A model generated the notes under the pieces. The model made no database searches, was not told the origin of the DNA, and saw nothing but the letters and a program-made list of their open reading frames with translations. This document shows positions 19,528-37,363 of a DNA stretch of 46,977 nucleotides, piece by piece (the stretch's first letter is position 1; each line of letters begins with the position of its first letter). Source of the DNA: an uncultured Methylococcaceae bacterium (GTDB lineage: Bacteria > Pseudomonadota > Gammaproteobacteria > Methylococcales > Methylococcaceae); NCBI GenBank assembly GCA_903934875.1, contig CAIZPP010000139.1, forward strand, positions 1 through 46,977. Reading direction: 5' to 3'. Made by a program: the position numbers and the translations under genes.

Positions 19528-19621
19528 GGTTCCCACGCTCCAGGAACCAGCCCGCACTGCTCCTGAGGTAACCCGGCGCTTGAGCGCCAATTTGAGGCAT
19601 TCCCACGCTGCAGCGTGGGAA
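19528..19621. repeat. Palindromic REP-like repeats inside the rnf operon
   Basis: GGTTCCCACGCTCCAGGAACC (19528-19548 without its last base is also partly symmetric), GGCGCTTGAGCGCC (19575-19588) and a perfect palindrome with 11-bp arms TTCCCACGCTG/CAGCGTGGGAA (19600-19621) fill the only long gap in the operon, between rnfG and rnfE. Such GTTCCCACGCT elements are dispersed extragenic repeats in many Gammaproteobacteria. In mRNA they would form stable hairpins. Confidence 0.7.
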
Positions 19622-19641
19622 CAAGAACATGAGGTAATAGC

Positions 19642-20334
19642 ATGAACGAAGAATTCCGCAAAATCACCCGCGACGGGCTGTGGGACAACAACATCGTCTT
19701 CAGCCAGAGCATAGGCCTGTGTCCCCTGCTGGCCGTCACCGGCACGGCGGTCAACGGTTTGGGCATGGGCTTGGCGACCACCGCCGTGATGGTGGTGTGC
19801 AGCGCCCTGGTTTCCCGTGGCAGGCTGTTGATCCCGCCGGAAATCCGCATCCCCATCTTCGTGGTGCTCATCGCCATGGTAGTGACCTTGGTGGACATGC
19901 TGATGAACGCCTGGCTGCATGAAATGCACAAGGTGCTGGGCCTGTTCATTCCGCTGATCGTGACCAATTGCGCCATTTTGGGGCGGGTTGAGGCGTATGC
20001 CTCGCGCCGTCCGGTGGCCGAGTCGACTATGGACGGCCTGATGATGGGGCTGGGTTTCACCTTGGCCTTGGTGGTATTGGGGGCGACTAGGGAAATCTTA
20101 GGCGCGGGTACGCTGTTTGCCAATGCGTCGCTACTGATGGGAGAGTCCTTCGCGTGGATGGAAACCGTGCTAATCGACCAATACCGGGGGTTTCTGCTGA
20201 TGGCCCTGCCGCCGGGCGGATTCTTGATGCTGGGCTTCATTTTGGCCGGCAAAAAAGTTTTGGACCGCAAGCTTCAGGCAAGAAGCAAGGCCGTGCCGGT
20301 CAGTCTGGCCGACACTATGCAACTGGAGGGCTAG
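19642..20334 (+). CDS. rnfE: Rnf complex membrane subunit E
   Basis: The 230-residue membrane subunit is homologous to RnfA. Conserved segments are DGLWDNNIVFSQSIGLCPLL, FIPLIVTNCAILGRVEAYA and MMGLGFTLALVVLGATREIL. The start has GAGGTAA upstream. The two VTNC/TTNC loops of RnfE and RnfA are proposed to hold a 2Fe-2S cluster at their interface in this family. Ends 4 nt before rnfH. Confidence 0.96.
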   Translation: MNEEFRKITRDGLWDNNIVFSQSIGLCPLLAVTGTAVNGLGMGLATTAVMVVCSALVSRGRLLIPPEIRIPIFVVLIAMVVTLVDMLMNAWLHEMHKVLGLFIPLIVTNCAILGRVEAYASRRPVAESTMDGLMMGLGFTLALVVLGATREILGAGTLFANASLLMGESFAWMETVLIDQYRGFLLMALPPGGFLMLGFILAGKKVLDRKLQARSKAVPVSLADTMQLEG

Positions 20335-20338
20335 CGCT

Positions 20339-20623
20339 ATGAATGTGGGCGTATGTTACGCGGAAGCCGACCGGCAAGTCTGGCTGAGGCTGGAAACCCC
20401 GGACGGCAGCACGGTGGAACAGGCCATCGCCCATTCCGGCATACTCCGCCAGTTTCCAGAAATTAATCTGGCCCGGCAGAAAGTCGGGGTTTTCGGCAAG
20501 CTGGTCAAGCTGGATGCGCCCGTGAAGGATGGTGACCGCATCGAGATTTACCGGCCCATCACCGCCGACCCGAAAACCGTCCGCCGCCGCCGGATAGGCG
20601 ACGAAGACGAAGACGACGATTGA
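20339..20623 (+). CDS. rnfH: RnfH family protein
   Basis: The 94-residue, beta-grasp-like small protein of the RnfH/UPF0125 family often closes Rnf operons. Signature stretches are VCYAEADRQVWLRLE, FPEINLARQKVGVFGK and DGDRIEIYRPITADPKTVRRRR. The C-terminus is strongly acidic (DEDEDDD). Its exact role is not settled. Confidence 0.93.
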   Translation: MNVGVCYAEADRQVWLRLETPDGSTVEQAIAHSGILRQFPEINLARQKVGVFGKLVKLDAPVKDGDRIEIYRPITADPKTVRRRRIGDEDEDDD

Positions 20624-20631
20624 GAGGCACT

Positions 20632-20844
20632 ATGTATATCTGCATCTGCAAGGCAGTCACCGACGGCCAAATCCGCGCGGCCATCCAGCAAGGCGCATGC
20701 ACCCGCAAGCAATTGTCCGAATGCCTCAGCGTGGGCAGGGACTGCGGAAAGTGCAACGCTGATTTGCGGGTGTTGCTGAATAACCACGCTAAAACGTTTT
20801 CAACATCCAATAATGGCTATATAAGCTCTATAGCCACTCTTTGA
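20632..20844 (+). CDS. bfd: Bfd-like (2Fe-2S) ferredoxin
   Basis: The 70-residue protein has the bacterioferritin-associated ferredoxin pattern: MYICICKAVTDGQIRAAIQQ, then CGKC, giving C-x-C...C-x2-C ligands for a 2Fe-2S cluster. The family releases iron from bacterioferritin or serves as a small electron carrier. It starts 8 nt after rnfH, so it is most likely the last gene of the rnf operon. That position hints at a link between iron supply and nitrogenase/Rnf assembly (inference). The last 17 residues extend past the usual domain. Confidence 0.88.
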   Translation: MYICICKAVTDGQIRAAIQQGACTRKQLSECLSVGRDCGKCNADLRVLLNNHAKTFSTSNNGYISSIATL

Positions 20845-20894
20845 AAATGAAAACGCTTTAGAGATTGGAATCTTATCCTTGTCGCAGGGCCTTA

Positions 20895-20981
20895 GGGCGC
20901 AATAGCGGTACTCCGAGTATTGCACCCGAATTCAATGTTTAACCATCCGGCGCAATATGTGGCGGAGCCACTATTGCGCCC
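20895..20981. repeat. Pair of inverted GGGCGCAATA palindromic repeats
   Basis: Two imperfect palindromes, 20895-20927 (GGGCGCAATAGCGG...TATTGCACCC) and 20947-20981 (CCGGCGCAATATGTGG...CTATTGCGCCC), are inverted copies of each other. They resemble paired REP elements. They occupy the start of the 459-bp gene-free stretch between bfd and the LysR gene, whose remainder holds a moeA remnant. Confidence 0.65.
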
Positions 20982-21100
20982 GAATTGCGTCTTGCCGCGT
21001 TACTTGCTGAATGTCAAAAATAATAGTGTCGGCACTGAAGTCTTGCGCATGGGGCCAAATGATCCCATGATGGGCAGGCCGCACCCTACGAAAATAAGAC

Positions 21101-21268
21101 TCATCTAAAAGCTCTTTGAAAGCCACGCTGATATTCGGTGCGACCGGCCCGCTTCTTTAAAGTCGAGGCGGACACTACGCGCAAACTCAGCGGCGGGATG
21201 GGGGTTTCACCGGCCAGACGTTGCAAAGCCGGTTGCACGAACTGGCTGAATAGATGCTTTCTGTTCCC
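21101..21268 (-). pseudogene. MoeA C-terminal domain fragment
   Basis: The minus strand encodes GNRKHLFSQFVQPALQRLAG, then PPLSLRVVSASTLKKRAGRT and EYQRGFQRAF, then stop. This matches the MoeA (molybdopterin molybdenumtransferase) end region, in which GNP..........FVRPALR.LAG leads to P...KK.GR.EFQRG. The preceding sequence has an in-frame stop and no MoeA body. It is a decayed remnant directly 3' of the LysR gene. Confidence 0.5.
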
Positions 21269-21303
21269 TTGCGCCCCAAGCCCCTATGCCGAAACGTATG
21301 TCA

Positions 21304-22197
21304 TCATAGGGATTTAGGGTTGGCGATTGTCCGCGTAAAGGCTAGGGCGTCGCCGATGGCATAGTCTAGGGCCAACGCGGCGGGGTGACTCCGATAGCTG
21401 GCATAAAGCGGCAGGGGCTGAATTTTCAGCTCTGCTTCCAGGATGGCAATCCGGTGGGAACAGGCCAGTTCTTCGGCCACTGCACGGGGCAGAGTCGCCA
21501 AGCCGAAACCCGATTCCACCAGCTTGACCATGGCCCAGATGGACGAGATGGCGTGTATCCGTTTGCTAGTGGCGTTGTGGCTGCGCAAGGCTTGCACTAA
21601 GGCGGCATAGGGCTTGGAGCCTTTCTGGAAGGTCAACAGTTCCCATTCCAGCAAGGCATCAAGACTGATAGCCTGTCCCAGGCTGGCCGGACCGGCAAAC
21701 ACCATTTCCATGGGCGGCAGGGTTGCATGGTTGAAGTCCTCGCCGACGGTTGGCTCAGCGGAAAAAATCAAGTCCAGGTTGCCTTGCCGTAGGCGCTTGT
21801 CGAGGACAGGGGTCATCTCCACATTGAGTTCAAATTCAAGCGGCTGTTTCCGCTCTTGCTTAAGCTGTTGCATCAGGGGGATCAGCCAAGTGTGCAGCAC
21901 GGTCTCAACACAGCCAATTCGAAGCAGGAGCGGCCCCCTCCTGGCCGAACAAAACTCGCGCTGAACCTCTTCTTCCAAGGCGAGCAATTCTTTGGCTCGA
22001 GGTAGAAAGCGCTCGCCAGCCTCCGTCAGATAGAAGACTTTGTCCTGGCGGTCTATCAAGGTTACACCCAGTTCTTGCTGTAAGACCGCGATGCGTTTGG
22101 AAACCGCCGCCTGGGCGATGTTAAGATTCTTCGCCGCCTGCGTGTAGCTCTGCACACGGGCGACCTCGATAAAGGTTTCGACAAATCGTAGGTTCAT
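21304..22197 (-). CDS. LysR-family transcriptional regulator
   Basis: The 297-residue regulator has an N-terminal winged HTH (MNLRFVETFIEVARVQSYTQ, AAKNLNIAQAAVSKRIAVLQ) and a C-terminal substrate-binding domain (about 90-290; LLRIGCVETVLHTWLIPL, LDLIFSAEPTVG). The ATG at 22197 places the HTH at the very N-terminus, as is usual; an upstream in-frame ATG would add 43 residues of non-LysR sequence. It is divergent from the D-glutamate cyclase/oxoprolinase ORF, with a perfect palindrome between them. It probably controls that ORF in response to a glutamate- or oxoproline-type ligand (inference). Confidence 0.93.
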   Translation of the reverse strand: MNLRFVETFIEVARVQSYTQAAKNLNIAQAAVSKRIAVLQQELGVTLIDRQDKVFYLTEAGERFLPRAKELLALEEEVQREFCSARRGPLLLRIGCVETVLHTWLIPLMQQLKQERKQPLEFELNVEMTPVLDKRLRQGNLDLIFSAEPTVGEDFNHATLPPMEMVFAGPASLGQAISLDALLEWELLTFQKGSKPYAALVQALRSHNATSKRIHAISSIWAMVKLVESGFGLATLPRAVAEELACSHRIAILEAELKIQPLPLYASYRSHPAALALDYAIGDALAFTRTIANPKSL

Positions 22198-22269
22198 TTG
22201 AAATCCTAAATGCCTGATCCACTCGGAAGTGCCAAGCATAACGCTGGAGAAAGTTAGTCCTCGCACAAT

Positions 22270-22295
22270 AAAAGGTGATGGTTCCATCACCTTTT
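22270..22295. promoter_or_regulatory. Perfect 12-bp-arm palindrome, candidate LysR operator
   Basis: AAAAGGTGATGG and its exact reverse complement CCATCACCTTTT flank a TT centre. It lies 73 bp upstream of the lysR start and 113 bp upstream of the cyclase/oxoprolinase start, the classical position for a LysR-type box in a divergent promoter. The T-N11-A core can be placed inside it. A hairpin terminator is less likely because no gene converges on it. Confidence 0.6.
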
Positions 22296-22407
22296 CTCGT
22301 TTTGAAATTCCGGCCGGCTCTCGCATACTTCTCTCGCAGACAGAAACCGCCCCATACGCCTACCTTCACTCGGCACTTGGGGGCATCTTAACCTTAAGGA
22401 GATAGCG

Positions 22408-25400
22408 ATGATCGGCCATCAACCCAACAGCGACTCAGCCTTGCAAAGCCTGCCGATAGAAACCGGCGTGTCGGTGCGCCATGCCGTCCGCGCCGGCCAG
22501 TGGTCGGGGCATACCAGCGGGGTGGCCCCGCATTTCGTCCAAGCCAATCTGGTGATCCTGCCCAAAGACTTAGGCCACGATTTCCTGCTCTATTGTCAGC
22601 GCAATCCCAAACCCTGTCCACTGCTGGCCGTGTCGGAACCGGGCAACCCACGCCTGCCGCGACTCGGCGCTGACCTCGACATCCGCACCGATCTGCCGCG
22701 CTATCGGGTGTGGCGACGGGGCGAGCTTGCCGCCGAACCCGCCGACATCCTCGCTCACTGGCGGGACGATCTGGTCAGCTTCGCCATAGGCTGCTCGTTT
22801 TCCTTTGAGGAATTACTGACCGATGCGGGCATTTCCATGCGCCATAGGCAAGAAGGCAAGAACGTGGCAATGTACTTGACCAACATCCCGACGTTGCCGG
22901 CTGGAACTTTCCACGGCCCGCTGGTCGTGTCGATGCGGCCCATGACGCCGGCCAACGCGATCCGGGCGGTTGAGCTGACGGCCCGCTTGCCGGCGATCCA
23001 CGGCGCACCCGTACATTTGGGCGACCCTGGCTTGATCGGCATCGCCGACCTTCAACGGCCCGACTTCGGCGACCCGGTGGACATCCGGCCCGGTGAAATT
23101 CCAGTCTTTTGGGCCTGCGGCGTGACCCCCCAAGCGGCGGTCATGCAGGCCAAGCCGGAATTCTGCATCACCCACGCCCCCGGCTGCATGTTGGTCACTG
23201 ACCTGCTGAACAGCGAACTGGCGATCTCAACGAGGGGAACGGCCATATGGAGAGTAACGACGATGAATCACGAACAGCAAACCAACAACCCATCCCCCCC
23301 TCGCTGGCAATTTTGGGTAGACCGGGGCGGCACCTTCACCGACATCGTCGCCCGCCGCCCGGACAACCGCCTTATCACCCACAAGCTGCTGTCGGAAAAC
23401 CCAGAACAATATCCCGACGCGGCAGTGGCCGGCATCCGCCATCTATTGGGTTTGCAAGACGGCGAACCTATCTCGCCGGCCCAAGTCGGTGCGGTGAAGA
23501 TGGGCACGACGGTTGCCACCAACGCATTGTTGGAGCGTAAAGGCGAGCCTACCGCGCTGTTCATCAGCCAAGGCTTTCGCGATGCCTTGCGCATCGCCTA
23601 TCAAAACCGGCCTCGGATTTTCGATCTTGATGTGGTGCTGCCGGAATTGCTGTACACAAAAGTGGTGGAAGTGGCGGAGCGTATCGGTGCTCATGGCGAC
23701 GTGGTTTTAGGGCTAGACGAAGACTTGGCCCGCCGCCAATTGCAAGCTGCCAAGGCGGAGGGTTTTCAGTCCATCGCTATCGTTTTGATGCACAGCTACC
23801 GTTTTCCGCAACACGAGCAAACCCTCGCCCGGCTGGCGCGGGAGGCAGGTTTCAGCCAAATCAGCGTGTCCCATGAAGTCAGCCCGTTGCTGAAGCTCAT
23901 CCCTCGGGGCGACACCACGGTGGTCGATGCGTATTTATCGCCCGTTTTGCGCCGCTACGTTAATCAAGTCGCGCAAGCCATGCCGGGTGTGCGTCTGCAA
24001 TTCATGCAATCCAGCGGCGGGCTGGCGCAGGCGCAAAGCTTCCAAGGCAAGGACGCGGTGCTGTCCGGGCCGGCCGGAGGCATCGTCGGGATGGTTCGCG
24101 CCGGACAGCAGGCTGGGTTTTCCAAGATCATCGGTTTTGATATGGGCGGGACTTCCACCGATGTATCGCATTTTGCCGGCGAGTTCGAGCGCGAGTTCGA
24201 GACTCAGGTCGCCGGTGTGCGGATGCGCTCGCCGATGCTGTCCATACACACCGTGGCGGCGGGGGGCGGCTCCATCCTGCATTTTGATGGCAGCCGTTTC
24301 CGCGTCGGCCCGGATTCTGCCGGGGCCAACCCCGGCCCGGCCTGCTACCGGCGCGGCGGGCCTTTAGCGGTGACCGATTGCAATGTCTTGCTGGGCAAGC
24401 TCCAGCCCGCGTTCTTCCCGCAGGTGTTCGGGCCTGATGCAGACCAAGCCTTGGACGATCAAACCGTGGCGGAACGCTTTGCCGAACTGGGCGATGCAAT
24501 TTGGCGGGCCACGGACAGCAGGCAAAGCCCGGAAGCCATCGCGGCGGGCTTCATTGAGATCGCTGTCGGCAATATGGCGAATGCCATCAAAAAGATTTCG
24601 GTGCAGCGCGGCTATGAGCTTCACGATTATGTGTTGCTCAGTTTCGGTGGCGCGGGCGGGCAACATGCCTGTCTGGTGGCAGAGGCGCTGGGCATGTCGA
24701 AAGTGCTGGCCCATCCCTTGGCCGGGGTGCTGTCGGCCTATGGCATCGGGCTGGCAAGCCAAAGTGTGATCCGTGAACAAGCGGTGGAACTGGAACTGTC
24801 CGCGTCCATGCTGACGGAACTGGAATCGCTGTTAGCCGAGTTGGAAATCCAAGGCCAGGTAGCTTTGCTCAAGCAAGGTGTGGCACCATCGGGATTGCAA
24901 GTGGTGAGGCACGTTAGGCTATGCTATCAAGGCACCGACCATGCCTTAAGCGTCGGCTTCGCCGGTCTGGAGGCGATGCGCGGACAATTCGAAGCGGCCT
25001 ACCGCCAGCGCTACGCCTTTTTGATGCCGGAGAAGGCTTTGATCGTCGAAGCGGTGTCAGTGGAGGTGTCGGATCGGCCCGCAACCCCGCCGGAAAGCTT
25101 CGGTGAATTGCCCGCCCGCGAGGGTGCATTGCAAGCGGCCAATACCGTACCGATGTTTTCGGCGGGCCTATGGCGCGAGGCGGGCTTATACCGACGGGAA
25201 GATCTGCGACCCGGTGATGTCATCGAAGGCCCGGCCATCATCGCCGAGCCGGTCGCCACCACCGTAGTGGAAGTTGGCTGGCGGGCAGAGGTCACGGCTT
25301 TGAATCATTTGCTGTTGAGCCGCGAAGCTTGCGCCCTCACCCAACATCCCTCTCCCAAGGAGAGAGGGACTATTGCTGCCGACCCCGTCCGTCTGGAAGT

Positions 25401-26901
25401 CTTCAACAATTTGTTCATGTCCATCGCCGAGCAAATGGGCCTGCGCCTGCAAAACACCGCGACCTCGGTCAACATCAAAGAGCGGCTGGATTTCTCCTGT
25501 GCCTTGTTCGACGAGGATGGGAATTTGATCGCCAACGCCCCGCATATCCCGGTCCATCTAGGCTCCATGGGCGAGTCCATCCAAGCCGTCATCCGCGCCA
25601 ACGCAGGCTTGATGCGGCCTGGCGATGTCTATGCCTTGAACGACCCTTACCAAGGCGGCACCCATCTGCCCGACATCACCGTCGTGACGCCCGTCTTTGA
25701 TGAGGCGGGCGAGCGCATCTTGTTCTATGTCGGCTCTCGTGGCCATCATGCCGATGTGGGCGGCACCACGCCCGGATCGGTTCCGCCGCATTCCAAGACC
25801 ATCGCGGAAGAAGGTGTGCTAATCAGCAACTGGAAGCTGGTCGAAGCGGGGCGACTGCGTGAACTTGAAACCTTGGCCCTACTCGCCTCCGGCCCCTACC
25901 CTTCCCGCAACCCGCAGCAAAACCTCGCCGATCTGCGCGCCCAAGTCGCCGCCAATGAAAAGGGGGCGCAGGAATTGCGCAAGCTGGTAGCCCATTACGG
26001 CTTATGCGTGGTGCAGGCTTACATGGGCCATGTGCAAGACAACGCCGAGCAAGCCGTGCGCCGGGCCATAGGGGCTTTGCAAGATGGGCGATTCACGCTG
26101 ACGATGGACAACGGCGCGGAAATCCAGGTCGGGATCCGCGTCGATCACGAACAGCAAAGCGCGGTCATTGATTTCACCGGCACCTCGCCGCAGGTGGACA
26201 GCAATTACAACGCGCCCCGCTCGGTGTGCATGGCGGCGGTGCTGTATGTGTTCCGCACGCTTGTGGGCGAAGACATCCCGCTCAACGCCGGTTGTCTTAG
26301 GCCCTTGGACGTGATTATCCCGGAAGGCTCCTTGCTCAACCCGCGCCATCCCGCCGCCGTGGTGGCCGGCAATGTGGAAACGTCGATGTGCGTCACCAAT
26401 GCCTTATACGGGGCGTTGGGCCTGCTGGCCTCTAGCCAATGCACGATGAACAACCTCACCTTCGGCGACGGTTCACATCAATACTACGAAACCTTGGCCG
26501 GCGGCACAGGAGCCGGGCAGGGTTTCGACGGGGCCAGCGTCGTGCAGGCGCATATGACCAATTCCCGGCTGACCGACCCGGAAGTGTTGGAATGGCGCTT
26601 CCCGGTGCGGTTGGAAAGCTTTGAAATCGTCCCAGGCACCGGCGGCGCGGGCCGCTGGCGCGGCGGAGACGGAGCCTTAAGGCGCATCCGTTTTTTACAA
26701 GCCATGACCGCGTCCATCCTCGCCAACAATCGCCTCACCGCGCCCTTCGGCATGGCAGGTGGCGAACCTGGAACACCCGGAGCGAACTGGGTGGAGCGAG
26801 CGGACGGCGGACGGGACGATCTAGGCTATGCCGACTCGGCGGAGCTGGCGGCGGGCGATGTGCTGGTGGTGCGGACGCCGGGGGGCGGCGGGTATGGTTA
26901 A
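22408..26901 (+). CDS. D-glutamate cyclase (DUF1445) - 5-oxoprolinase (HyuA-HyuB) fusion
   Basis: One open frame of 1497 residues has AAGGAG seven bases ahead of its ATG. Residues 1-275 are a DUF1445/YcsI-type D-glutamate cyclase ([34 protein letters not shown]-like [45 protein letters not shown]). Residues 300-985 are HyuA/OPLAH N-terminal ([40 protein letters not shown]). Residues 1005-1497 are HyuB ([41 protein letters not shown]). Known chemistry: the cyclase forms 5-oxoproline from D-glutamate, and 5-oxoprolinase hydrolyses 5-oxoproline using ATP. An internal ATG at 23262 with GGAG upstream could also start the oxoprolinase separately, so the fusion may be a lost stop codon between coupled genes. 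Confidence 0.9.
25333..25369. repeat. Dispersed CCCTCTCCC palindrome inside the oxoprolinase linker
   Basis: CCCTCACCCAACATCCC followed by CCCTCTC and GAGAGGG arms (25348-25354 and 25362-25368) is a widespread extragenic palindromic repeat type. Here it is read in frame as THPSPKERG-like residues between the HyuA and HyuB domains, without breaking the frame. Confidence 0.65.
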
Positions 26902-27139
26902 GGACTCGGGACAGGGCAACAATCTTAACGGTTTGATTGCCAACGGTTAAGCTGGCTGCATTTTCTGGTTGATGGTCGTGCTCCCGAATGCCCCAGCCAC
27001 CCATTGGGGCCATAGGCATACTCCGCACGGTCAGGTTTTCGGTCTCTTCATCAAGCCAATCGGGTGCTTTTGCCTGCATCAGCTTGGATCGGTGCCATGA
27101 TTCTGCTGCTAGCCGACGATGTCGCACGCGGCTGGCTGA

Positions 27140-27349
27140 CAGTGGAAGTGCCTGCAGGGTTATGCGGTTTTGCACAGTACCCATTACCCCGACCATGCCC
27201 GGATAGTTTCCACTCGGGTGTTGATGCTTAAAGCCGGACGATTGATTGCCGATGGGACACCGCAGCAGCTCATCAATGAAGCCAGTATTTTAAGCAATAC
27301 CTTCGCCAAGCTGGGGCTTGGCGCTCCCAATGGGAACGCCAAGCACTAG
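27140..27349 (+). pseudogene. ABC-transporter ATPase 3' fragment
   Basis: The frame reads GYAVLHSTHYPDHARIVSTR, then VLMLKAGRLIADGTPQQLI and a stop at 27347. This is the H-loop (STHYPDHA) and D-x-GTP..LI end of a FecE/FhuC-like ABC ATPase. An in-frame stop precedes it and no Walker motifs exist upstream. The rest of the 475-bp gap (26902-27139) shows nothing recognisable. Confidence 0.55.
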
Positions 27350-27355
27350 CTTGGC
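27305..27355. repeat. Nested inverted repeat (GCCAAGCT / CTTGGCG arms)
   Basis: Outer arms GCCAAGCT (27305-27312) and AGCTTGGC (27348-27355) enclose inner arms CTTGGCG (27317-27323) and CGCCAAG (27337-27343). It folds as a long hairpin between a plus-strand gene remnant and the minus-strand flavoprotein gene, where it could stop transcription from either side. There is no clear U-run. It resembles a dispersed palindromic repeat. Confidence 0.55.
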
Positions 27356-27376
27356 CTTTATATCGGCGGTTCTGTG

Positions 27377-28741
27377 CTAAAGCACCAATTCATCCATCAA
27401 ATGCGCCCCGGCACGAGCGGTATGTAGGCCTAGCCCGGCATCCCGCAGCAACTGATGGAAGTTCTCTGAACGGTCGGATACGGACGAGGCGGCCAGCATC
27501 AGTTCCAGTTCCACCGGTGGCACTTGGCGCATGAAGCGCCGCACCAATTCCGCATCCACGCCGTCGCCGCCGAATTCCCCTAGAGCCAACGAACGCGAAA
27601 ACCCGTAGAACTGGCGCAAGCGGTTCTCGCAGAGTTGGGCATGGCGGGCGCGGCGGGCCGGGTCCTTCAGCGATTCGCACAGTGCCAGAGCCGTCATGGA
27701 GGCGTTGTAAAAAGCATTCAGCACACCGTGGGAATAAATGGGATCGACAAAAGATGCCGCATCGCCTATGCAATAAAAATTCTCCCCGCAGAGTTTGGTG
27801 GAGTAGTAGGAATAATCCGGCCTTTCGCAAAAGGAACCCTCCACATACTCGGCTGTATCCAGCAGGCGGTCCAGGTAGGGGGCACGCCTTAAGGTGTCTA
27901 GGAAAAACTGTTCGCGCCCTGCCTTGTCCATGACGCGGGCCGTATCGGTGTTGATGACCAAACCCACGCTGGTGAGCTTGCGCAAGACGATATGCCAGAT
28001 CCAACCGTCTGCAAAGGAGGTGACAAAGGTGACGGGCCGAACCTTGCCGATGTATGCCGCTGGATGGCCCCGACCGTCGGCACCCACGAAGCGGGAATTT
28101 TTGAAATAGCCCCACAAGGACAGGAACCTCATGCGCGAATCCACTAGCCGCTTGGACTTGAACTGCCCGGCGAGCAGGGCGGAAGGCCCGCTGGCATCGA
28201 CCACAAAACGGCAGTTCAACCGCCCCGCGGAGGCATCGTCCCCGCGCCGGTCCACATAATGCACCTGCGGGGAGTCCAAGCCCAGATTGGCCTCGCGGAC
28301 GGTAACCTGCTGAAAAACCCTTGCGCCCACGCTTGCGGCGTGATTCAGCAGCAATTCGTCGAAGATATCCCTTTCCACATGCAGCGCGGGCCGGGTGAAG
28401 CCGAATTCGGCGAAGGCGATGCGGTGGATTTTCCCGTTCCAAACCGCGATGCCACCGGCTTTGGCGAGGAAACCTTCCTTTTCGATCAGCGGTGACGCAC
28501 CGGTCTGGTCGGCGTATCTCCAAACATGCGGGATCAGGCTCTCGCCCACTTGGGGGCGGGGATGGCGGGCTTTTTCCAGCAGCACCACATCCACACCGCG
28601 CTGTGCCAGCAAGGCCGCAACACTGGAACCGGCGGGGCCGCCGCCGATGACCAGGACATCGCATTGATCTGGGATTGCAGCGCCGCAGGATGTGCTGGGC
28701 TTGTGAAGCGCATCAGTCGGCAATGTTATCAACCTTGCCAT
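27377..28741 (-). CDS. FAD-dependent halogenase-like oxidoreductase
   Basis: The 454-residue flavoprotein belongs to the tryptophan-halogenase/PltA-like group of FAD monooxygenase folds. The FAD dinucleotide motif is VIGGGPAGSSVAALLAQRG (about 31-49). VGESLIPHVW and a Lys in GFLAKAGG (Lys94) correspond to the halogenase catalytic Lys. GDAASFVDPIYSHGV is the second FAD motif. The halogenase WxWxIP motif is only partly kept (WIWHIV, 247-252, Pro replaced), so it may not halogenate. The ATG at 28741 overlaps the end of the lipoprotein gene by 29 nt, indicating one operon. It flanks the aryl-polyene cluster and probably modifies its product or a precursor (inference). Confidence 0.82.
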   Translation of the reverse strand: MARLITLPTDALHKPSTSCGAAIPDQCDVLVIGGGPAGSSVAALLAQRGVDVVLLEKARHPRPQVGESLIPHVWRYADQTGASPLIEKEGFLAKAGGIAVWNGKIHRIAFAEFGFTRPALHVERDIFDELLLNHAASVGARVFQQVTVREANLGLDSPQVHYVDRRGDDASAGRLNCRFVVDASGPSALLAGQFKSKRLVDSRMRFLSLWGYFKNSRFVGADGRGHPAAYIGKVRPVTFVTSFADGWIWHIVLRKLTSVGLVINTDTARVMDKAGREQFFLDTLRRAPYLDRLLDTAEYVEGSFCERPDYSYYSTKLCGENFYCIGDAASFVDPIYSHGVLNAFYNASMTALALCESLKDPARRARHAQLCENRLRQFYGFSRSLALGEFGGDGVDAELVRRFMRQVPPVELELMLAASSVSDRSENFHQLLRDAGLGLHTARAGAHLMDELVL

Positions 28742-29276
28742 TGTTAAAATGGACGATGAATTTGTTGAAACGGCTGGACCAGTAAGTCCAGTCGTTGGAG
28801 TCCAGGCTGGGAGTCTCATGCTGGGGTGGATAACCGATGGCCACCAAAACGGCCTGCCGCTCCATGCCTTTCTTGACTTTTCCGGCTAGGATGTGTTGCT
28901 GTTCGGCCATGGAAAAGCCGCTGAGATCGACTTTGCGCGGCCCCAAGATTTTTAGAAAAGCCCTAGGCATGTCATCCTTGGTGTACTTGGGGACATTTTC
29001 GATGCTGAGGTTCTGGCCGGTTTGGTTGATCTTGATTTGGGCTTTGTCGGTGCCTATGGATACCAGCGACACAGGGGTATTGACGGGGATCAAGATGCCC
29101 CTGCGGTAATTGGTGGTGCGATAATTGTTTTCTTCCTGAAACAAGCTGAATTGGGTGTAGTAAGTCTGCCCGATCTGGATGCCTGGCGGAAGATCGGAGG
29201 ATTTGATCTGCCGGTTGCAAGCCCCTAGCAAGCACATGAGGATAAGAAGGAAAAATAGGGAACGTTTTCTGAGCAT
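28713..29276 (-). CDS. Lipoprotein with BamE/SmpA-like C-terminal fold
   Basis: The 187-residue predicted lipoprotein has a basic start, hydrophobic segment and lipobox LLGAC at about residue 19. The C-terminal region (KKGMERQAVLVAIGYPPQ ... DWTYWSSRFNKFIVHFNNGK) has the GM..Q....IG.P...W.Y....F.V.F.NGKV pattern of BamE/SmpA-type domains. It is translationally linked to the downstream halogenase-like gene and preceded by the conserved 41-bp APE box. Role unknown; an outer-membrane part of pigment handling is possible. Confidence 0.75.
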   Translation of the reverse strand: MLRKRSLFFLLILMCLLGACNRQIKSSDLPPGIQIGQTYYTQFSLFQEENNYRTTNYRRGILIPVNTPVSLVSIGTDKAQIKINQTGQNLSIENVPKYTKDDMPRAFLKILGPRKVDLSGFSMAEQQHILAGKVKKGMERQAVLVAIGYPPQHETPSLDSNDWTYWSSRFNKFIVHFNNGKVDNIAD

Positions 29277-29291
29277 AATTCTAACCCATAT

Positions 29292-29332
29292 GGTATGTGA
29301 AGCATGGAAAAATATTTATATACAGCGTTTTC
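29292..29332 (-). promoter_or_regulatory. Conserved 41-bp element upstream of lipoprotein/flavoprotein operon
   Basis: GGTATGTGAAGCATG, five variable bases, ATATTTATA and TACAGCGTTTTC. The same 41 bases occur inverted at 42438-42478 with 35 matches. It lies just ahead of the lipoprotein start at 29276. The core TACAGCRTTTT also occurs four more times around 42295-42892. Confidence 0.6.
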
Positions 29333-29379
29333 TAGGAAATAACGGCTTAACGATCAATGTTGTAGGATTTACTGTTCAG

Positions 29380-29419
29380 CCTTCGACCCTTCGACAAGCT
29401 CAGGACTCAGGGCGAACGG
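29380..29419. repeat. Dispersed CTTCGACAAGCTCAGG-type repeat
   Basis: The block CCTTCGACCCTTCGACAAGC followed by TCAGGACTCAGGGCGAACGG is a familiar proteobacterial intergenic repeat. It sits between the TauE/SafE gene and the lipoprotein operon; no gene is affected. Confidence 0.6.
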
Positions 29420-29474
29420 AAAATCCTTAACTTAATGGCAGTGAGGGGCATCCGGGGGATATTTACCGGCAGCG

Positions 29475-30431
29475 CTACACATACCGCCGCGAACGGTACA
29501 TCAGATAATACACGCAGGAAAACCCCAAGAACAGTGCAATCGAGCCGGCGGCAATTTCCCTGCTCAACGGAATCAGCACCAGGGAGGATGCCAACTCCGC
29601 CAAAATTAGCAGGATCAAGGTTCTAACCACGAGCATCCTTGACATGCGCGAACAAACATACACGCCCAAAGGTGCCCCCATAGCCACGATGGGGATGGCT
29701 GCAAGCCAGTATTCGGTCACTGGCGGGACAAACTGCCCCGCACCGACGATCATGGCGAAGCCGGACCAGGAGGTCAACACCATCATCACGATGACCGTCG
29801 GTGTCGCGGACTTCTCGCACATCCGAAATAACAGCACCAAGACAGAAAAAACGATGATTTCCAGGCCGCTGCCTAACAATCCGCTGACCAGCCCGCCTAT
29901 CATGCCGAAGGCTAACAGAATGCCCTTTTCCAAGGCATTGAAGCGGGGCAGGCCAGCGTGCCTGTCCCTGTCCGGGTCTAGGTTGTGCCACCATAGCGCC
30001 AAGGCAAAACTGCACTGGACTACGGTGAACAATATCCTCACTACACTGGGTGGCAGCAGCGCGGAAAGCGAAAGCCCCACTGCCAGCATTGGCACCGAAC
30101 CGAGGACAACCCAAGCCACGGCACGCCATTCGACGCGGATGCGCAACAGGAGGATGGTCAAAAAACCCGAACCCATGCCTATGCTTTGGGTAGCGAGGGA
30201 AAACAGCTTGGCCTGCGCGGGCGGAATGGCAAGCAGTTTGGTGAACACGGGGAAGGCCACAGCCCCCCCCGCCTCGCTGGTCGCACCGCCGATGAAAGAC
30301 CCGAAAGCCATGGTGAGAGTGATCTGCCAATGTTTGACCAATGCCCAAAACGGCGGGTGGCCAGGCAGGAAATACCAGCCCAGCCAAACCAAGGGAGGAA
30401 TCAGAAAGACCAAAGTTCGACTACTGGGCAT
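29475..30431 (-). CDS. TauE/SafE-family membrane permease
   Basis: The 318-residue integral membrane protein has about eight helices. It carries the typical small-residue-rich repeats FGSFIGGATSEAGGAVAFPV and FGMIGGLVSGLLGSGLEII (the duplicated GG..SG..G motif of TauE/SafE). The family exports or imports sulfur-containing or organic anions. It is on the same strand as the APE operon, 71 nt after the DUF29 gene, but function in pigment export is not shown; substrate unknown. Confidence 0.85.
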   Translation of the reverse strand: MPSSRTLVFLIPPLVWLGWYFLPGHPPFWALVKHWQITLTMAFGSFIGGATSEAGGAVAFPVFTKLLAIPPAQAKLFSLATQSIGMGSGFLTILLLRIRVEWRAVAWVVLGSVPMLAVGLSLSALLPPSVVRILFTVVQCSFALALWWHNLDPDRDRHAGLPRFNALEKGILLAFGMIGGLVSGLLGSGLEIIVFSVLVLLFRMCEKSATPTVIVMMVLTSWSGFAMIVGAGQFVPPVTEYWLAAIPIVAMGAPLGVYVCSRMSRMLVVRTLILLILAELASSLVLIPLSREIAAGSIALFLGFSCVYYLMYRSRRYV

Positions 30432-30502
30432 TGTTTTTTTTCGGTAGTATGGCAGTGTTCCAAAACTAGATACGGACTCCGTATCTGAAAACGCCGATCA
30501 TC

Positions 30503-30943
30503 TCATTCTGGAAACCAATCAACGCCAAGAATATCATCAGCTTTCCACGGGCATGATTCTGGAAAGTGCTCGTACAAGAAGCCTGTTTCTTTCGTCGCTA
30601 TATTCAATGCCTGGGCCCAAACACTGTCCCACCATTCGACATCTTGCAAATGGGGTTTTAAGCTCGGTGTGGCTTTTAGGCAATCAAGGACATCCTTCCG
30701 TTGCACCTTGATTGTTCGCCGCCAGCTATTGCCCTGGCGTTCAGGCTGGTGCTGCCACTTCAATAGGTGGGCTAAAAGCACAGCCATATGGCTCTTCAAT
30801 TCACGCCTTTCACTTTTGCCCACGTCTTCGATCTCCTCGGCAATGTGTTCAATGTCCAGTTGGGAGAATAGCCCGCTACGCAGGAGCCGCGCCTGTTCGT
30901 TCGCCCAAGCGATGATGTCGCCGTCGTAAGTGCTGGTTGCCAT
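30503..30943 (-). CDS. DUF29 domain-containing protein
   Basis: The 146-residue soluble protein has the DUF29 signature: YDGDIIAWANEQARLLRSG, LDIEHIAEEIEDVGKSERRE, LLAHLLKWQHQPERQGNSWR, and a terminal WKADDILGVDWFP. This helical domain is common in cyanobacteria and Gammaproteobacteria. Its function is unknown. It is 44 nt after the thioesterase gene on the same strand, probably a passenger. Confidence 0.85.
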   Translation of the reverse strand: MATSTYDGDIIAWANEQARLLRSGLFSQLDIEHIAEEIEDVGKSERRELKSHMAVLLAHLLKWQHQPERQGNSWRRTIKVQRKDVLDCLKATPSLKPHLQDVEWWDSVWAQALNIATKETGFLYEHFPESCPWKADDILGVDWFPE

Positions 30944-30987
30944 GGTTTTACACCCTGTTTTTATCGCGCTAAAAACCCTAAAAAAGT

Positions 30988-31404
30988 TTAAAGAGTATCA
31001 AACTTAATTCCCAATCGCTTTAGAAACACCTCAGGGGAAGCATAGCTCATTTCCCCGGTGGCGGTATCCACAGCCGCTTGTATGGTGTGCCCTTTGGTCA
31101 GCACTTCACCCGTTTCGGCATCGGCTATGAGATATTTTATCTTCATGCGGTATTCCCACTCCTGCAATTCCGCCGATACCAGGATGTCCTGGCCAAACCT
31201 CGCGGGACGGACAAAGCGCAATTGCAAATCGACGATGGGCCAAACGTAACCGCTGGCCTTCATCGCCATGTAGCCATAGTCGATCTGGTCGAGCATTGCG
31301 CAACGGGCAATTTCGAGATATTTGCAAAAATGCCCGTGCCAAGCAATGCCGAGCATGTCGATATCATGGAAAGGCACCGTCAACTTCACTTCGGCGCGGA
31401 TCAT
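30988..31404 (-). CDS. Hotdog thioesterase (ApeK-like) of the aryl-polyene cluster
   Basis: The 138-residue 4HBT hotdog-fold thioesterase has the catalytic segment FHDIDMLGIAWHGHFCKYLE (Asp of the YbgC/FadM group). LQLRFVRPARFGQDILV and GEVLTKGHTIQAAVD are the following strands. The ATG at 31404 has AAGGAAGGAC upstream; a longer frame runs into an extragenic repeat. In aryl-polyene clusters such enzymes (ApeK) release or proofread acyl chains on the ACP. Last biosynthetic gene of the minus operon. Confidence 0.85.
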   Translation of the reverse strand: MIRAEVKLTVPFHDIDMLGIAWHGHFCKYLEIARCAMLDQIDYGYMAMKASGYVWPIVDLQLRFVRPARFGQDILVSAELQEWEYRMKIKYLIADAETGEVLTKGHTIQAAVDTATGEMSYASPEVFLKRLGIKFDTL

Positions 31405-31490
31405 TGGCGTCCTTCCTTTGTGCTGACCTCGCCCGCTTCTGTGTCGGCAATCCTGTTTACGACGAAGTTTGCCGTAACTTGAGGCTTGCC

Positions 31491-31532
31491 ATCCCTGGAC
31501 GCTGGATTCCGGCATCCATGCCTGAATGACGG
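31491..31532. repeat. Dispersed CTGGATTCCGGCATCC palindromic repeat
   Basis: ATTCCGGCAT and ATGCCTGAAT (31505-31526) form an imperfect palindrome within the common proteobacterial repeat CTGGATTCCGGCATCCATGC. It fills the 129-bp gap between the GT/acyltransferase and thioesterase genes. Confidence 0.65.
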
Positions 31533-31533
31533 G

Positions 31534-33258
31534 TTATTTTTCATCGTTTTGGCTCAAACTGGGCATTGCCGCTTCTGTGCCGGACGATGGGTTCCAATAC
31601 GGGTAAAAATTGAACCACTGGAATGGCACTGTGTGGCAATGGGCTTCAAGCCGTCCGGCATAGCGTCCCGCCAGGGTTGCAAGCATCTGCCGGCGTTGCG
31701 GCTCGGAGCGCGGGATGCGGATGGATTCGGCGAAAAGTTCCAGGTTTATCTGAAAACGCCCATCCTTCGGGTAACAAAATAGGGTATACACCGGGCAACG
31801 CAAGAGCGATGCGAGCAAATAGGGGCCTTGAGGAAATTCCGCGTCCTTGCCTAGGAAACTCGCCGATACTGTGCGGCTGCCTGTGACCGGAATTCTGTCA
31901 CCCACCAGTACCAGAAACTCCCCGCGCTCGATTTTTTCCTGCAATTCTATGGCGATACCCGGATTCAACTCGGTAACCTGGATGAGTCGGATGGTAGTAC
32001 TTCCCCCGCTGCCACCCAGCATGCGGTTGAACTTCTCCGCGTGTTTAGTGTGGACTAAGATGTTGAGATAGATGTGGCCGCGCAGGTTGGCTATTGCCTG
32101 GCAAATTTCCAGGTTGCCGACATGGCCGCTTAGGATCATGGCCCCGCGCTTTTGCTCCAGCAAATCAAGCAGCAGTTGGCGATTTGGAAAACTGACTTGG
32201 CTGGGGTCGATATTTCCCGTCCACGCGATGATTTTATCCAGCAGCGTCTCACCGAAGCTTAGGAAATGGCGGTAACTCTCCCACCCACTGCCACTTAGCC
32301 CCAATTCGGGAAAATGCTGGCCCAAGCGGCACAAATACTCCCGCGAGGCATCGCGGGCGATTTGTCCGGTGAGGAAGTAATAACTGACGACCGGGAACAA
32401 GAACAGGCGGAACGCCCAGCGGCCAAAAATCCGGTAAACCCACAGCAAGGCACGTATACCCCAGACGGTGCTAGTTTCCTCCAAGGATGCCCAATGGCGG
32501 GTGGCGCTTTCTGGCTGCATTGCGTGCCTAGCCAACAGTTTCGGCAAACGTGGCAACATGCCGAAAAACAAACGGGCATGGGTCAGGCTGATGCGCAGAT
32601 TATCTTCCCATCCGCGGAAATGAGACACGCCATCTTGCGGATAACCCACCTTGGTCGGAATCGACACGACAGGCACACCTTGCCAGTAAAGCCGGACTAG
32701 AATTTCCACATCAAAGGCCATGCGGTCTTCCAGCACGGTGGTTTGGATCAGCCTTGCGCAAGTGTCGACCGGATAGACCCGGTAGCCGCACATCGAATCG
32801 CGGATAACGAAGGAGGCGGTGTTGATATGTACCCAAACATGGGTCAGGTAGCGGGCGTAATAGCGAAGTCTGGGGATGGATTCGTCAAATATCGGTTGGC
32901 CGATGACAACCGCCTGCGGGGTTTCCCTGGCGGTGGCAAGGAATTTGTCCAGATCGTCCAAGTCATGCTGACCGTCGGCATCAATTTGCACGGCATGGGT
33001 ATAACCTAGTCCTAGTGCCAACAGGAGGCCCTCCTTCACCGCCCCACCCTTGCCTCGGTTGGCTTCCAGCCGGACAGACCGCACCCAGTGGTATTGACTG
33101 GACAAGCCGCGGATTATCCCAGCACAGGATTCAAGGCTGCCATCGTCCACCAAGATGCAAGGCAACCCGTAAGGAGCCAGGCGTTCCACAATCGCAGGCA
33201 AAGGCCCTTCATGGTTGTAGACAGGAATGAGCAGGCATGGATTAAACGCTGTCGCCAT
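31534..33258 (-). CDS. Bifunctional glycosyltransferase 2 / LpxL-type acyltransferase (ApeJ-like)
   Basis: The 574-residue fusion begins with residues 1-245 as a GT-A family 2 glycosyltransferase (CLLIPVYNHEG, ILVDDGS, VQIDADGQHD with the metal-binding DxD). Residues 275-560 are an LpxL/HtrB-like lipid acyltransferase (LSGHVGNLEICQAIANLRG with H....E; LVLVGDRIP; FPQGPYLLASLL). This two-domain protein is typical of aryl-polyene clusters, where it is thought to join the polyene to a sugar or lipid anchor at the inner membrane. It overlaps the dehydratase gene by 17 nt. Confidence 0.9.
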   Translation of the reverse strand: MATAFNPCLLIPVYNHEGPLPAIVERLAPYGLPCILVDDGSLESCAGIIRGLSSQYHWVRSVRLEANRGKGGAVKEGLLLALGLGYTHAVQIDADGQHDLDDLDKFLATARETPQAVVIGQPIFDESIPRLRYYARYLTHVWVHINTASFVIRDSMCGYRVYPVDTCARLIQTTVLEDRMAFDVEILVRLYWQGVPVVSIPTKVGYPQDGVSHFRGWEDNLRISLTHARLFFGMLPRLPKLLARHAMQPESATRHWASLEETSTVWGIRALLWVYRIFGRWAFRLFLFPVVSYYFLTGQIARDASREYLCRLGQHFPELGLSGSGWESYRHFLSFGETLLDKIIAWTGNIDPSQVSFPNRQLLLDLLEQKRGAMILSGHVGNLEICQAIANLRGHIYLNILVHTKHAEKFNRMLGGSGGSTTIRLIQVTELNPGIAIELQEKIERGEFLVLVGDRIPVTGSRTVSASFLGKDAEFPQGPYLLASLLRCPVYTLFCYPKDGRFQINLELFAESIRIPRSEPQRRQMLATLAGRYAGRLEAHCHTVPFQWFNFYPYWNPSSGTEAAMPSLSQNDEK

Positions 33259-35571: not shown

Positions 35572-35837
35572 AAGCTATTTTTTTTCTGTTGCGATATGAC
35601 AAAACCGGCCAGATTTTCAACCGATGCGAAATAACTCACGAGTTCTACGGAATCGGTATCGATGTGGATTTGATATTTCTTCTTCAACGCCACCCCCAGT
35701 TCCAGCGCGTCAATCGAATCAAGTCCCAGCCCTGCGCCAAACAGGGGGGCTTCTGAAAGGATGTCCGCTGCACTTATCCCTTCCAACTCCAAGGTATCAA
35801 TAATCAACTGCTTCAGTTCGGCTTCAAGGTTTTCCAT
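35568..35837 (-). CDS. Acyl carrier protein (ApeE-like)
   Basis: The 89-residue carrier protein has Ser41 in GAGLGLDSIDALELG. The ATG at 35837 overlaps the acyltransferase gene by 14 nt; an earlier in-frame codon would add six residues. Two distinct ACPs are the rule in aryl-polyene and flexirubin clusters. Confidence 0.92.
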   Translation of the reverse strand: MENLEAELKQLIIDTLELEGISAADILSEAPLFGAGLGLDSIDALELGVALKKKYQIHIDTDSVELVSYFASVENLAGFVISQQKKNSL

Positions 35838-36600
35838 GGTGCGCCTGTTGTTCAATAAAATACCGCTCCAGTTGCCGGGTTATGCTTCTCGTCGCGAGGG
35901 AACGGTTTGCGTTTCCTGCAATCGCGCCTACCTCAATATCATCTCCCACATGCAAGCTTAAAATAAATTTCCTTTGCGGTATCTGATACCATTTTTCGTG
36001 CTTGGTCAACGTTGTCGGGGAGCAGCTAATGTAGACTGGTAGAATTGTGGCCCTAGCCTGCAAGGCAATGGCGGCGGCGCCGCGGCGGAACTTGATTGGC
36101 TTGCCGGGTGTGCTGCGCGTCCCTTCAGGAAATATGATGAGCGAACAGCCCTCGCGCAATTCCTTAGCGCATAGCTCCATCAATTCCTCCGGCTCTTCAG
36201 CGTAAACATACCCTACGGCATGGATGGGAATGCGCATGAATGGATTGCCGGCCAAGGCGGGTTTGACGATGCAAGTGGCGTTGCGGATTTGCGCGATGAG
36301 GAACACCACATCCAGCAGGCAGGGATGGTTGGCAATGACTAGCCTGCCTGGTGTGTTGATCTGCCCGCAGCCGCCAACCTCGTAGGCCAAGATGCCAATA
36401 CTGCGCATGAAGTCCATGTAAATCCGGCAAATCCAGTGCATCAAGACTCTGGATTTTAGCTTTTTTTGGATGCCTTTGCCGAGGAATTTTTCGATCAGCG
36501 GAAACAGCATCCCCCAAAAAAACACGCCAACGGCACCGAACAGGAAGAAGCTGATGCCAGTGCCGAACAGTCGCCAGAGGTAGTTGATGCGTTCAAGCAT
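35824..36600 (-). CDS. PlsC-type lysophospholipid acyltransferase (ApeD-like)
   Basis: The 258-residue membrane acyltransferase of the 1-acyl-glycerol-3-phosphate family has the HX4D motif in ANHPCLLD and the second motif IIFPEGTRST; GGAAAIALQ-like RRGAAAIALQ follows. N-terminal hydrophobic helices lie before residue 60. The ATG at 36600 overlaps the upstream stop by 8 nt. Likely transfers an acyl or polyene chain to a lipid. Confidence 0.9.
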   Translation of the reverse strand: MLERINYLWRLFGTGISFFLFGAVGVFFWGMLFPLIEKFLGKGIQKKLKSRVLMHWICRIYMDFMRSIGILAYEVGGCGQINTPGRLVIANHPCLLDVVFLIAQIRNATCIVKPALAGNPFMRIPIHAVGYVYAEEPEELMELCAKELREGCSLIIFPEGTRSTPGKPIKFRRGAAAIALQARATILPVYISCSPTTLTKHEKWYQIPQRKFILSLHVGDDIEVGAIAGNANRSLATRSITRQLERYFIEQQAHHGKP

Positions 36601-37363
36601 CGTCCAAGCTCCATAGCCAAAGCGAGCGCCCAAGAGGACAAGGTGAACTTCGTCGGCCATCTAGAATCGCCTGGACTAGGCTTTGCCCATCACCTGCAGC
36701 CACAGCCTGACTGTTACCCGGCCTACGAACCAAGCGCAACTGCCGGCCGGGGCCGCCAGCCCTGGCCAGAACCATAGCCAAAGCCCATGTGCTGTCGGCC
36801 GTGGCAAGGTATGCCCGGTAAGTCTCCGGCAAAGCCTGCCCATAGCAAACCACCAAGACCCTGGGTGTGTCCAAGAGCTGGCCTGCCGCTTCCAGAAAGG
36901 CAGCAAATATACCCTCGGTTCCGCCTGCCAAAGACACGTAAGGCAGGAAACTTGCCCTATGGAGGCTGGACAGTCCGGCGATGGCATTATGTACGCACAG
37001 GCTGAAGCGGCTGGGCGAGGCCTCCTCGCGCTCCGCTATCCCATGCAACATCTCGAAATAATATTGGCTTTCGCCATGGCTGGAGAAAAACACCGCGGGC
37101 ATGTCCCCGCATTTTCGCCAACAATGCCAAGCCACGGCGCTGGCCGCCCTAGCCAAAGGCGATAGCCTGCGCCTTTGCATCATGGGCAGGAAACCCACAT
37201 CGGCGCAGCCTTCGTTACATGGCAAAACTTCTCCGTCGGGCCAAAAGTCCCCTTGGCTAGGGGCGGTGGCGGATTGCCACAGGCACCAGCGCCCTAACGT
37301 GAAAAACAGGCGTATTGCCTGGCTACCGGCTTCTGAACACTGCATGTTACCGGACAGGTCCAT
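36593..37363 (-). CDS. Ketoacyl-synthase chain-length-factor-like protein (ApeC-like)
   Basis: The 256-residue protein resembles the N-terminal half of ketosynthases (KS-like/CLF domain, Ketoacyl-synt_2): MQRRRLSPLARAASAVAWHC, FFSSHGESQYYFEML, FSLCVHNAIAGLSSLHRAS. The catalytic Cys position is replaced and the His pair is missing, so it is not an active synthase. In aryl-polyene systems such a partner pairs with an active KS. The ATG at 37363 is 12 nt after the upstream stop; an in-frame start at 37387 would overlap it. Confidence 0.85.
   Translation of the reverse strand: MDLSGNMQCSEAGSQAIRLFFTLGRWCLWQSATAPSQGDFWPDGEVLPCNEGCADVGFLPMMQRRRLSPLARAASAVAWHCWRKCGDMPAVFFSSHGESQYYFEMLHGIAEREEASPSRFSLCVHNAIAGLSSLHRASFLPYVSLAGGTEGIFAAFLEAAGQLLDTPRVLVVCYGQALPETYRAYLATADSTWALAMVLARAGGPGRQLRLVRRPGNSQAVAAGDGQSLVQAILDGRRSSPCPLGRSLWLWSLDDA

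Follow-up and report, generated by a model that had tools for sequence, protein, structure and literature searches.

We analysed a 46,977-nucleotide stretch of DNA from an uncultured Methylococcaceae bacterium (assembly GCA_903934875.1, contig CAIZPP010000139.1; hereafter, the window), which is one entire contig of its genome assembly, and focus here on a single open reading frame (ORF) in which a DUF1445 (D-Glu_cyclase) domain is joined to a 5-oxoprolinase of the OPLAH type. The fusion gene and the regulator gene upstream of it comprise the following features (L and G numbers are our labels for loci and genomes).

21304-22326, reverse strand: regulator of the LysR family, oriented divergently to the fusion gene (Pfam HTH_1, LysR_substrate).
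22327-22407, no strand: intergenic region between the two divergent genes, in which a Shine-Dalgarno-like AAGGAG (22396-22401) precedes the start of the fusion (sequence).
22408-26901, forward strand: fusion ORF, 1497 amino acids (ORF list, Pfam, NCBIfam).
22408-23226, forward strand: DUF1445/D-Glu_cyclase (PRK05463) part, residues 1-273 (Pfam, NCBIfam, structure model).
23227-23229, forward strand: TCA codon in the position of the TAA stop of the closest relatives, L010 and L245 (alignment).
23227-23262, forward strand: linker of 12 codons (TCA plus 33 nt) up to the ATG (sequence; low model confidence; no homologue detected).
23249-23252, forward strand: GGAG, a possible internal ribosome-binding site lying 10 nt upstream of the in-frame ATG at 23263 (sequence).
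23263-26901, forward strand: OPLAH-type 5-oxoprolinase part, complete, 1212 amino acids (Pfam, NCBIfam, homologue comparison).
23311-23847, forward strand: Hydant_A_N, residues 302-480 (Pfam).
23905-24762, forward strand: Hydantoinase_A, residues 500-785 (Pfam).
24817-25293, forward strand: Hydant_A_C, residues 804-962 (Pfam).
25381-26898, forward strand: Hydantoinase_B, residues 992-1497, metal-ligand residues retained (Pfam).

An earlier sequence-only reading of the window had proposed an in-frame fusion of DUF1445 to a complete 5-oxoprolinase, and this is borne out by the stop-free ORF of 1497 residues and by the full-length Pfam domains; the in-frame ATG of the 5-oxoprolinase, placed in that reading at 23262, is at 23263. 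The D-Glu_cyclase domain (PF07286, DUF1445) occupies residues 123-265 and covers the whole profile (1-143 of 143) with 221.8 bits against a cut-off of 25, and the NCBIfam model PRK05463, a 'putative hydro-lyase', matches residues 19-272 above its cut-off. The three HyuA domains (N, A and C) and HyuB all lie within the same chain. The frame is real and unusual, and, judging from its domains, the fusion product is a plausible bifunctional enzyme.

The DUF1445 half shares its fold with the bacterial DUF1445/UPF0317 proteins (PRK05463; 2PIF and 3DB9) and carries the expected residue at all 54 near-invariant columns (at least 97% conserved) of an alignment of 117 rows, 115 of them different, in which the window and two doubly represented places are included. 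Whereas the other bacterial proteins examined end without a long extension, this domain continues into OPLAH. The structural model of the DUF1445 half is confident over residues ~18-272, with a mean predicted local distance difference test score (pLDDT) of 84.7 and values below 50 for residues 1-17 and 273-285, and matches Protein Data Bank entries 2PIF and 3DB9. The sole further Foldseek match of this model (22408-23262) with E below 0.001 was the NrpR-like 3NEK (E values of 6.4e-7 and 9.7e-6), with weak geometry (root-mean-square deviation of ~10 Å, TM-scores of 0.37-0.49). The NrpR-like family presumably comprises 2-oxoglutarate sensors, and the likeness would fit a glutamate-like ligand for DUF1445, which we take as a lead only. 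A joint 980-residue model of both halves was poor (mean pLDDT 55.3), and nothing was drawn from it.

The second half shares its full length, domain order and catalytic residues with the OPLAH-type (eukaryotic-type) 5-oxoprolinases, in which HyuA and HyuB form a single chain; the fusion alone adds an N-terminal DUF1445. According to an excerpt of PMC8453981, Asp11, Thr15, Asp18 and Asp295 of CapA form a phosphate site and Asp41, His99, Asp102 and His124 of CapB are metal ligands. Alignment places identical residues at all eight equivalent positions of the fusion, although these ATP-site and metal-ligand residues are common to the whole hydantoinase superfamily and are not diagnostic of 5-oxoprolinase. 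Going by such signature residues, both halves look functional.

Of the DUF1445 rows that contain a stop (115), 84 have it at the position of window residue 275, 16 at 274 and 15 elsewhere, which puts the expected stop of the window gene at 23227-23232 rather than near 23240, as the sequence-only reading had it. The nearest DUF1445 relatives, from Dechloromonas agitata (L010, 73%) and from G1711 (L245, 74%), both end in ELAF-TAA, and the fusion gene reads ELAI-TCA at the same place and continues. GC content by codon position is 0.25/0.83/0.58 in the linker, which has only 12 codons, versus 0.66/0.48/0.78 in the DUF1445 part, and the linker has no similarity beyond chance (16 of 60 shuffles scored as high) to the DNA behind DUF1445 genes or before OPLAH genes. 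The linker is probably former intergenic DNA, and the simplest account of the alignment is that the fusion arose by one substitution in the DUF1445 stop, which would have joined adjacent genes across a short gap.

Within the genus, one of the seven genomes carries DUF1445; the counts are 1 of 301 in a sample of the order (the window's own), 9 of 369 in a sample of the class and 64 of 398 in a sample of the phylum, as well as 101 of 399 genomes from the family of G407 and, with a protein query, 42 of 399 from its order; these samples overlap one another. The 190 loci examined represent 163 distinct genes, window included, and the DUF1445-HyuA-HyuB architecture, for which the sequence-only reading had suggested a search in related genomes, has no second case among the other 162: none extends more than 19 residues past the domain, with one (L012) cut by a contig end. 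The open frames listed at other DUF1445 places reach at most 1112 residues, too short for DUF1445 plus OPLAH. The longer of these frames (950 residues in the phylum sample; 904, 1070, 1108 and 1112 in the order of G407; up to 750 in its family) were rejected as fusions: in the loci followed, their excess is N-terminal and was judged by eye to be an out-of-frame, Arg/Ala-rich shadow reading, and the long frames of G1552 and G1519 disappear when read from the DUF1445 match. Likewise, tblastn matches on Sinorhizobium plasmids (H15-H18) that seemed to run from residue 191 into HyuA are spurious, because three-frame reading of two of them (L038 and L039) shows an intervening stop and unrelated upstream sequence. 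None of 1140 matching plasmid records covers 80% of a 597-residue junction-spanning query in one place. The sequence-only reading knew of no description of this fusion; no title or abstract opening on it appears among the open PubMed Central (PMC) matches listed, and no paper in the open PMC library searched pairs 'putative hydro-lyase' with '5-oxoprolinase'.

Unfused, the same partnership is widespread. Of the 106 DUF1445 places in family f115, we examined 100 together with as much as 9.5 kb of flanking DNA in both directions; one genome of this family carries a gene (L141) identical to the one in a named Comamonadaceae metagenome-assembled genome (L011). On the same strand and within 9 kb either side, 55 loci had OPLAH only, 20 had PxpABC only (at least two of PxpA, PxpB and PxpC), one had both and 24 had neither. 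Eleven of these 24 carried genes for DUF2848 and an amidase and 10 had less than 6 kb of contig downstream, L162 belonging to both sets. OPLAH lies downstream of DUF1445 in 55 loci, with a tripartite ATP-independent periplasmic (TRAP) or major facilitator superfamily (MFS) transporter gene in between in 42 and a distance below 300 nt in five. In two of these five, L181 and L183, DUF1445 and OPLAH are adjacent, with ends that overlap or nearly so, and unfused; this arrangement is likely to be an intermediate state toward fusion. A third neighbourhood, observed in 12 of the 100 loci, has same-strand genes for DUF2848 and an amidase (PF01425), usually following TRAP transporter genes (L124, 13195-15368; also L104, L114, L120, L139, L144, L150, L158, L162, L166 and L171); in L092 the pair lies upstream of DUF1445. 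These loci may encode another lactam-opening system or reflect a wider substrate range of DUF1445.

The gene order in L031 and L011 is LysR, DUF1445, TRAP transporter, a second DctP and OPLAH (Pfam was run on L031), and in D. agitata (L010) Pfam gives DUF1445, MFS and glutamate dehydrogenase, followed by CT_C_D, CT_A_B and LamB_YcsF, which we take to be the PxpB, PxpC and PxpA families, respectively. The entries 2PFZ and 2PFY, presumably those of DctP6 and DctP7 of Bordetella pertussis, come closest to the DctP encoded next to DUF1445 in L031. Structures of these two receptors were solved with 5-oxoproline, according to an excerpt of PMC13274462. DUF1445 was also found in one of 14 control genomes, that of Bacillus subtilis, where we take the protein to be YcsI. 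The portion of PMC10448178 consulted places ycsI of this bacterium within the pxpABC operon. Assignment of DUF1445 to a 5-oxoproline utilisation pathway is therefore well supported by context, and the placement of DUF1445 and 5-oxoprolinase in one pathway by the sequence-only reading gains support from both the domains and the operon partnership in other genomes. The fusion is a rare variant of this already known partnership: the L031, L011 and L010 operons encode the same activities together with a LysR gene, but as separate genes, whereas in the window they are joined with no transporter between them.

Several observations bear on the origin of the cassette. The closest matches of the LysR protein, L215/L245 (one place) at 55%, L010 at 55%, L106 at 53%, L109 at 51% and L110 at 48%, adjoin DUF1445-PxpABC operons, and the divergent orientation recurs in L010 and L245. 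In the DUF1445 tree (61 rows picked by score plus named loci, several distant rows being long), the window groups with D. agitata (support 99/96), and the sister group, joined at 88/81, has six members: five belong to PxpABC loci, and the remaining one, from the truncated locus L098, has PxpB beside it. In the OPLAH tree, a quick reconstruction of 69 rows without bootstrap in which the window row is a long branch, the OPLAH half adjoins OPLAH of family f115 (94 by the Shimodaira-Hasegawa-like approximate likelihood ratio test), apart from 10 of the 11 proteins of its own family; the eleventh, L019, is also inside the f115 group. The cassette appears chimeric, with the LysR and DUF1445 genes from one kind of operon and OPLAH from another. 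The other six genomes of the genus contain neither OPLAH (0 of 6) nor DUF1445. The PxpA family (LamB_YcsF) was found in none of the seven, the window's own included, and the fusion is thus the sole ATP-dependent 5-oxoprolinase of the two known kinds found in its genome.

With positions 19600-31500 as query, genus DNA matches strongly up to ~20.79 kb and again from ~27.38 kb, and between these points only short repeats were found in the genus among the matches listed, with at most 40 candidates scored per genome; for the LysR gene this evidence is weaker than a dedicated comparison would be. The two flanks lie on different contigs in three genus genomes, which is uninformative on gene order because the assemblies are so fragmented. 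Direct repeats around the cassette amount to short, chance-like pairs. The cassette looks horizontally acquired.

With moderate confidence, we favour the reading that an acquired LysR-DUF1445 pair and an OPLAH gene became, through loss of a stop, a one-chain, two-step enzyme for the utilisation of 5-oxoproline (pyroglutamate). The horizontally acquired pair would have come to adjoin an OPLAH-type gene, and one substitution would then have removed the DUF1445 stop, yielding a single chain with a linker from former intergenic DNA. In this chain, the DUF1445 half would turn a glutamate-like substrate into 5-oxoproline, whose lactam the HyuA/HyuB half would open with ATP to give glutamate. By its family name, the DUF1445 half is most likely a D-glutamate cyclase that would act on D-glutamate, and the family and operon context of the OPLAH half point to ATP-dependent hydrolysis of 5-oxoproline; in vivo, the two steps could be coupled.

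A parallel in layout is mammalian DGLUCY, which, like the fusion, couples DUF1445 to a second domain and belongs to the chemistry of D-glutamate and 5-oxoproline (PMC5339696); there the second domain is DUF4392, whereas here it is a 5-oxoprolinase. The assay that showed D-glutamate cyclase activity used the recombinant mammalian protein with both domains, not DUF1445 alone; the protein yields 5-oxo-D-proline and has no glutamate racemase activity, and its authors named DUF4392 the racemase-like part (PMC5339696). The same two-domain layout is noted in an excerpt of PMC5132392. The conversion of D-glutamate to 5-oxo-D-proline, which the sequence-only reading treated as the known activity of the DUF1445 family, accordingly goes back to this two-domain protein. 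Opening of a lactam ring leaves the alpha carbon untouched, and 5-oxo-D-proline entering the OPLAH half would therefore either return as D-glutamate, at the cost of ATP, or not be accepted. For the same reason, the proposed 'racemisation bypass' from D-glutamate to glutamate is stereochemically incomplete, and any route that usefully ends in L-glutamate requires an inversion step.

The following points weigh against the favoured reading. The fusion was found in one genome only, one base separates it from two separate genes, and the ATG at 23263, with its upstream GGAG, could still initiate a free 5-oxoprolinase. The stereochemistry does not close (D-glutamate in, L-glutamate out), and the activity of DUF1445 alone is putative. 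The long branch of the OPLAH half makes its placement in the tree unsure. Four loci with full surroundings (L137, L179, L184 and L190) lack same-strand partners, L179 having PxpABC on the opposite strand, and the pairing with DUF2848 and amidase does not by itself indicate 5-oxoproline. Finally, OPLAH matches occur in 15 of the 37 other genomes of the window's family, in contrast to the single DUF1445 genome in the order sample, and OPLAH therefore works without a DUF1445 partner.

The alternative that holds up best, although we consider it rather unlikely, is that the frame is real and the 5-oxoprolinase is nevertheless made mostly from the ATG at 23263, the read-through chain being a minor or neutral product of a recent accident. 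Given the position of the GGAG, separate translation of the 5-oxoprolinase may indeed persist; a GAGGGG also precedes an out-of-frame ATG at 23247, the alignments with the 11 free, full-length OPLAH proteins from the window's family start 8 to 14 residues downstream of the ATG at 23263, the linker looks non-coding and the fusion has no counterpart in relatives. However, the Shine-Dalgarno sequence ahead of the full ORF is the better one (AAGGAG, 6 nt spacing), and no stop hinders the passage of ribosomes through the junction. The single 160-kDa chain anticipated by the sequence-only reading hinges on one codon in one genome, alongside this possible internal start, and is not supported in the form proposed.

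A second alternative, which we regard as doubtful, concerns the reaction: DUF1445 could be a 5-oxoproline epimerase, or an inverting cyclase, that channels D-5-oxoproline or D-glutamate into an L-specific 5-oxoprolinase. Such an activity would explain why DUF1445 stands beside 5-oxoproline importers and two unrelated 5-oxoprolinases, as its partners include OPLAH, PxpABC and, in L031, a pyroglutamate-binding type of DctP receptor. Furthermore, glutamate dehydrogenase in the Dechloromonas operon suggests L-glutamate as the end product, a cyclase alone would create a futile loop, and the activity of the mammalian enzyme may reside in DUF4392. However, the whole mammalian protein gave 5-oxo-D-proline with no glutamate racemase activity, and the operons with DUF2848 and amidase hint at a wider substrate. 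Taken further, DUF1445 might act as a stereochemical gateway that turns D-glutamate or D-5-oxoproline into L-5-oxoproline, which would make the fusion a single chain that converts D- to L-glutamate and passes the intermediate directly between its two sites; we put this forward as a speculative and quite improbable extension.

It is also unlikely that an error in the assembly or its consensus conceals a real stop codon at 23227 and separate, adjacent genes ~33 nt apart. The two closest relatives do carry TAA at this codon, one substitution away, adjacent unfused DUF1445/OPLAH pairs exist elsewhere (L181, L183 and L092), and the fusion comes from a single genome in 344 contigs. Yet the assembly has a completeness of 99.99 and a contamination of 0.17, substitution errors of a single base are rare in good assemblies, and the former gap happens to be stop-free in the right frame. 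That the HyuA/HyuB half is instead a hydantoinase or other lactamase is very improbable: an N-methylhydantoinase (7HK5) and a caprolactamase (6YRA) of the same superfamily were both matched, but the caprolactamase NCBIfam scores of 330 and 166.5 compare with cut-offs of 1000 bits each, those of the acetophenone carboxylase subunits are far below their cut-offs as well, and the operon partners indicate 5-oxoproline.

Other features of the window lie outside the cassette. Just downstream is a multi-copy, partly palindromic repeat of ~87 bp:

27295-27381, no strand: multi-copy repeat (DNA search).

It has 48 matches in its own genome, counted among the best 40 of 117 candidates with some places matched on both strands, is also present in G001 and G003 and extends into the 3' end of a gene (27377-28819). 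Three more repeats near the cassette (29341-29444, 20879-21006 and 21008-21123) have short matches elsewhere in the genus. By Pfam, the ORF at 31534-33258 combines a family-2 glycosyltransferase domain with a lipid A acyltransferase-like domain, and the same stretch contains Trp_halogenase-like flavoproteins (27377-28819 and 41048-42289), an acyltransferase (35824-36660) and an AMP-binding protein (42911-44248); in our view, it resembles a polyene- or lipid-type biosynthetic cluster. Additionally, a protein of 1343 residues (1171-5202) contains AMP-binding, phosphopantetheine and hexapeptide-repeat domains.

Although many bacteria have DUF1445, the family is poorly characterised, and its function label derives from a mammalian protein with two domains. 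The fusion to OPLAH, together with the frequent pairing with two unrelated 5-oxoprolinases and a pyroglutamate-type transporter, ties DUF1445 to 5-oxoproline metabolism, and the fusion raises the question of what the true reaction of bacterial DUF1445 is and which enantiomer enters and leaves; one polypeptide would supply both activities in a single preparation. If the gateway role were true, D-glutamate could be converted to L-glutamate independently of racemases of the pyridoxal phosphate or MurI type.

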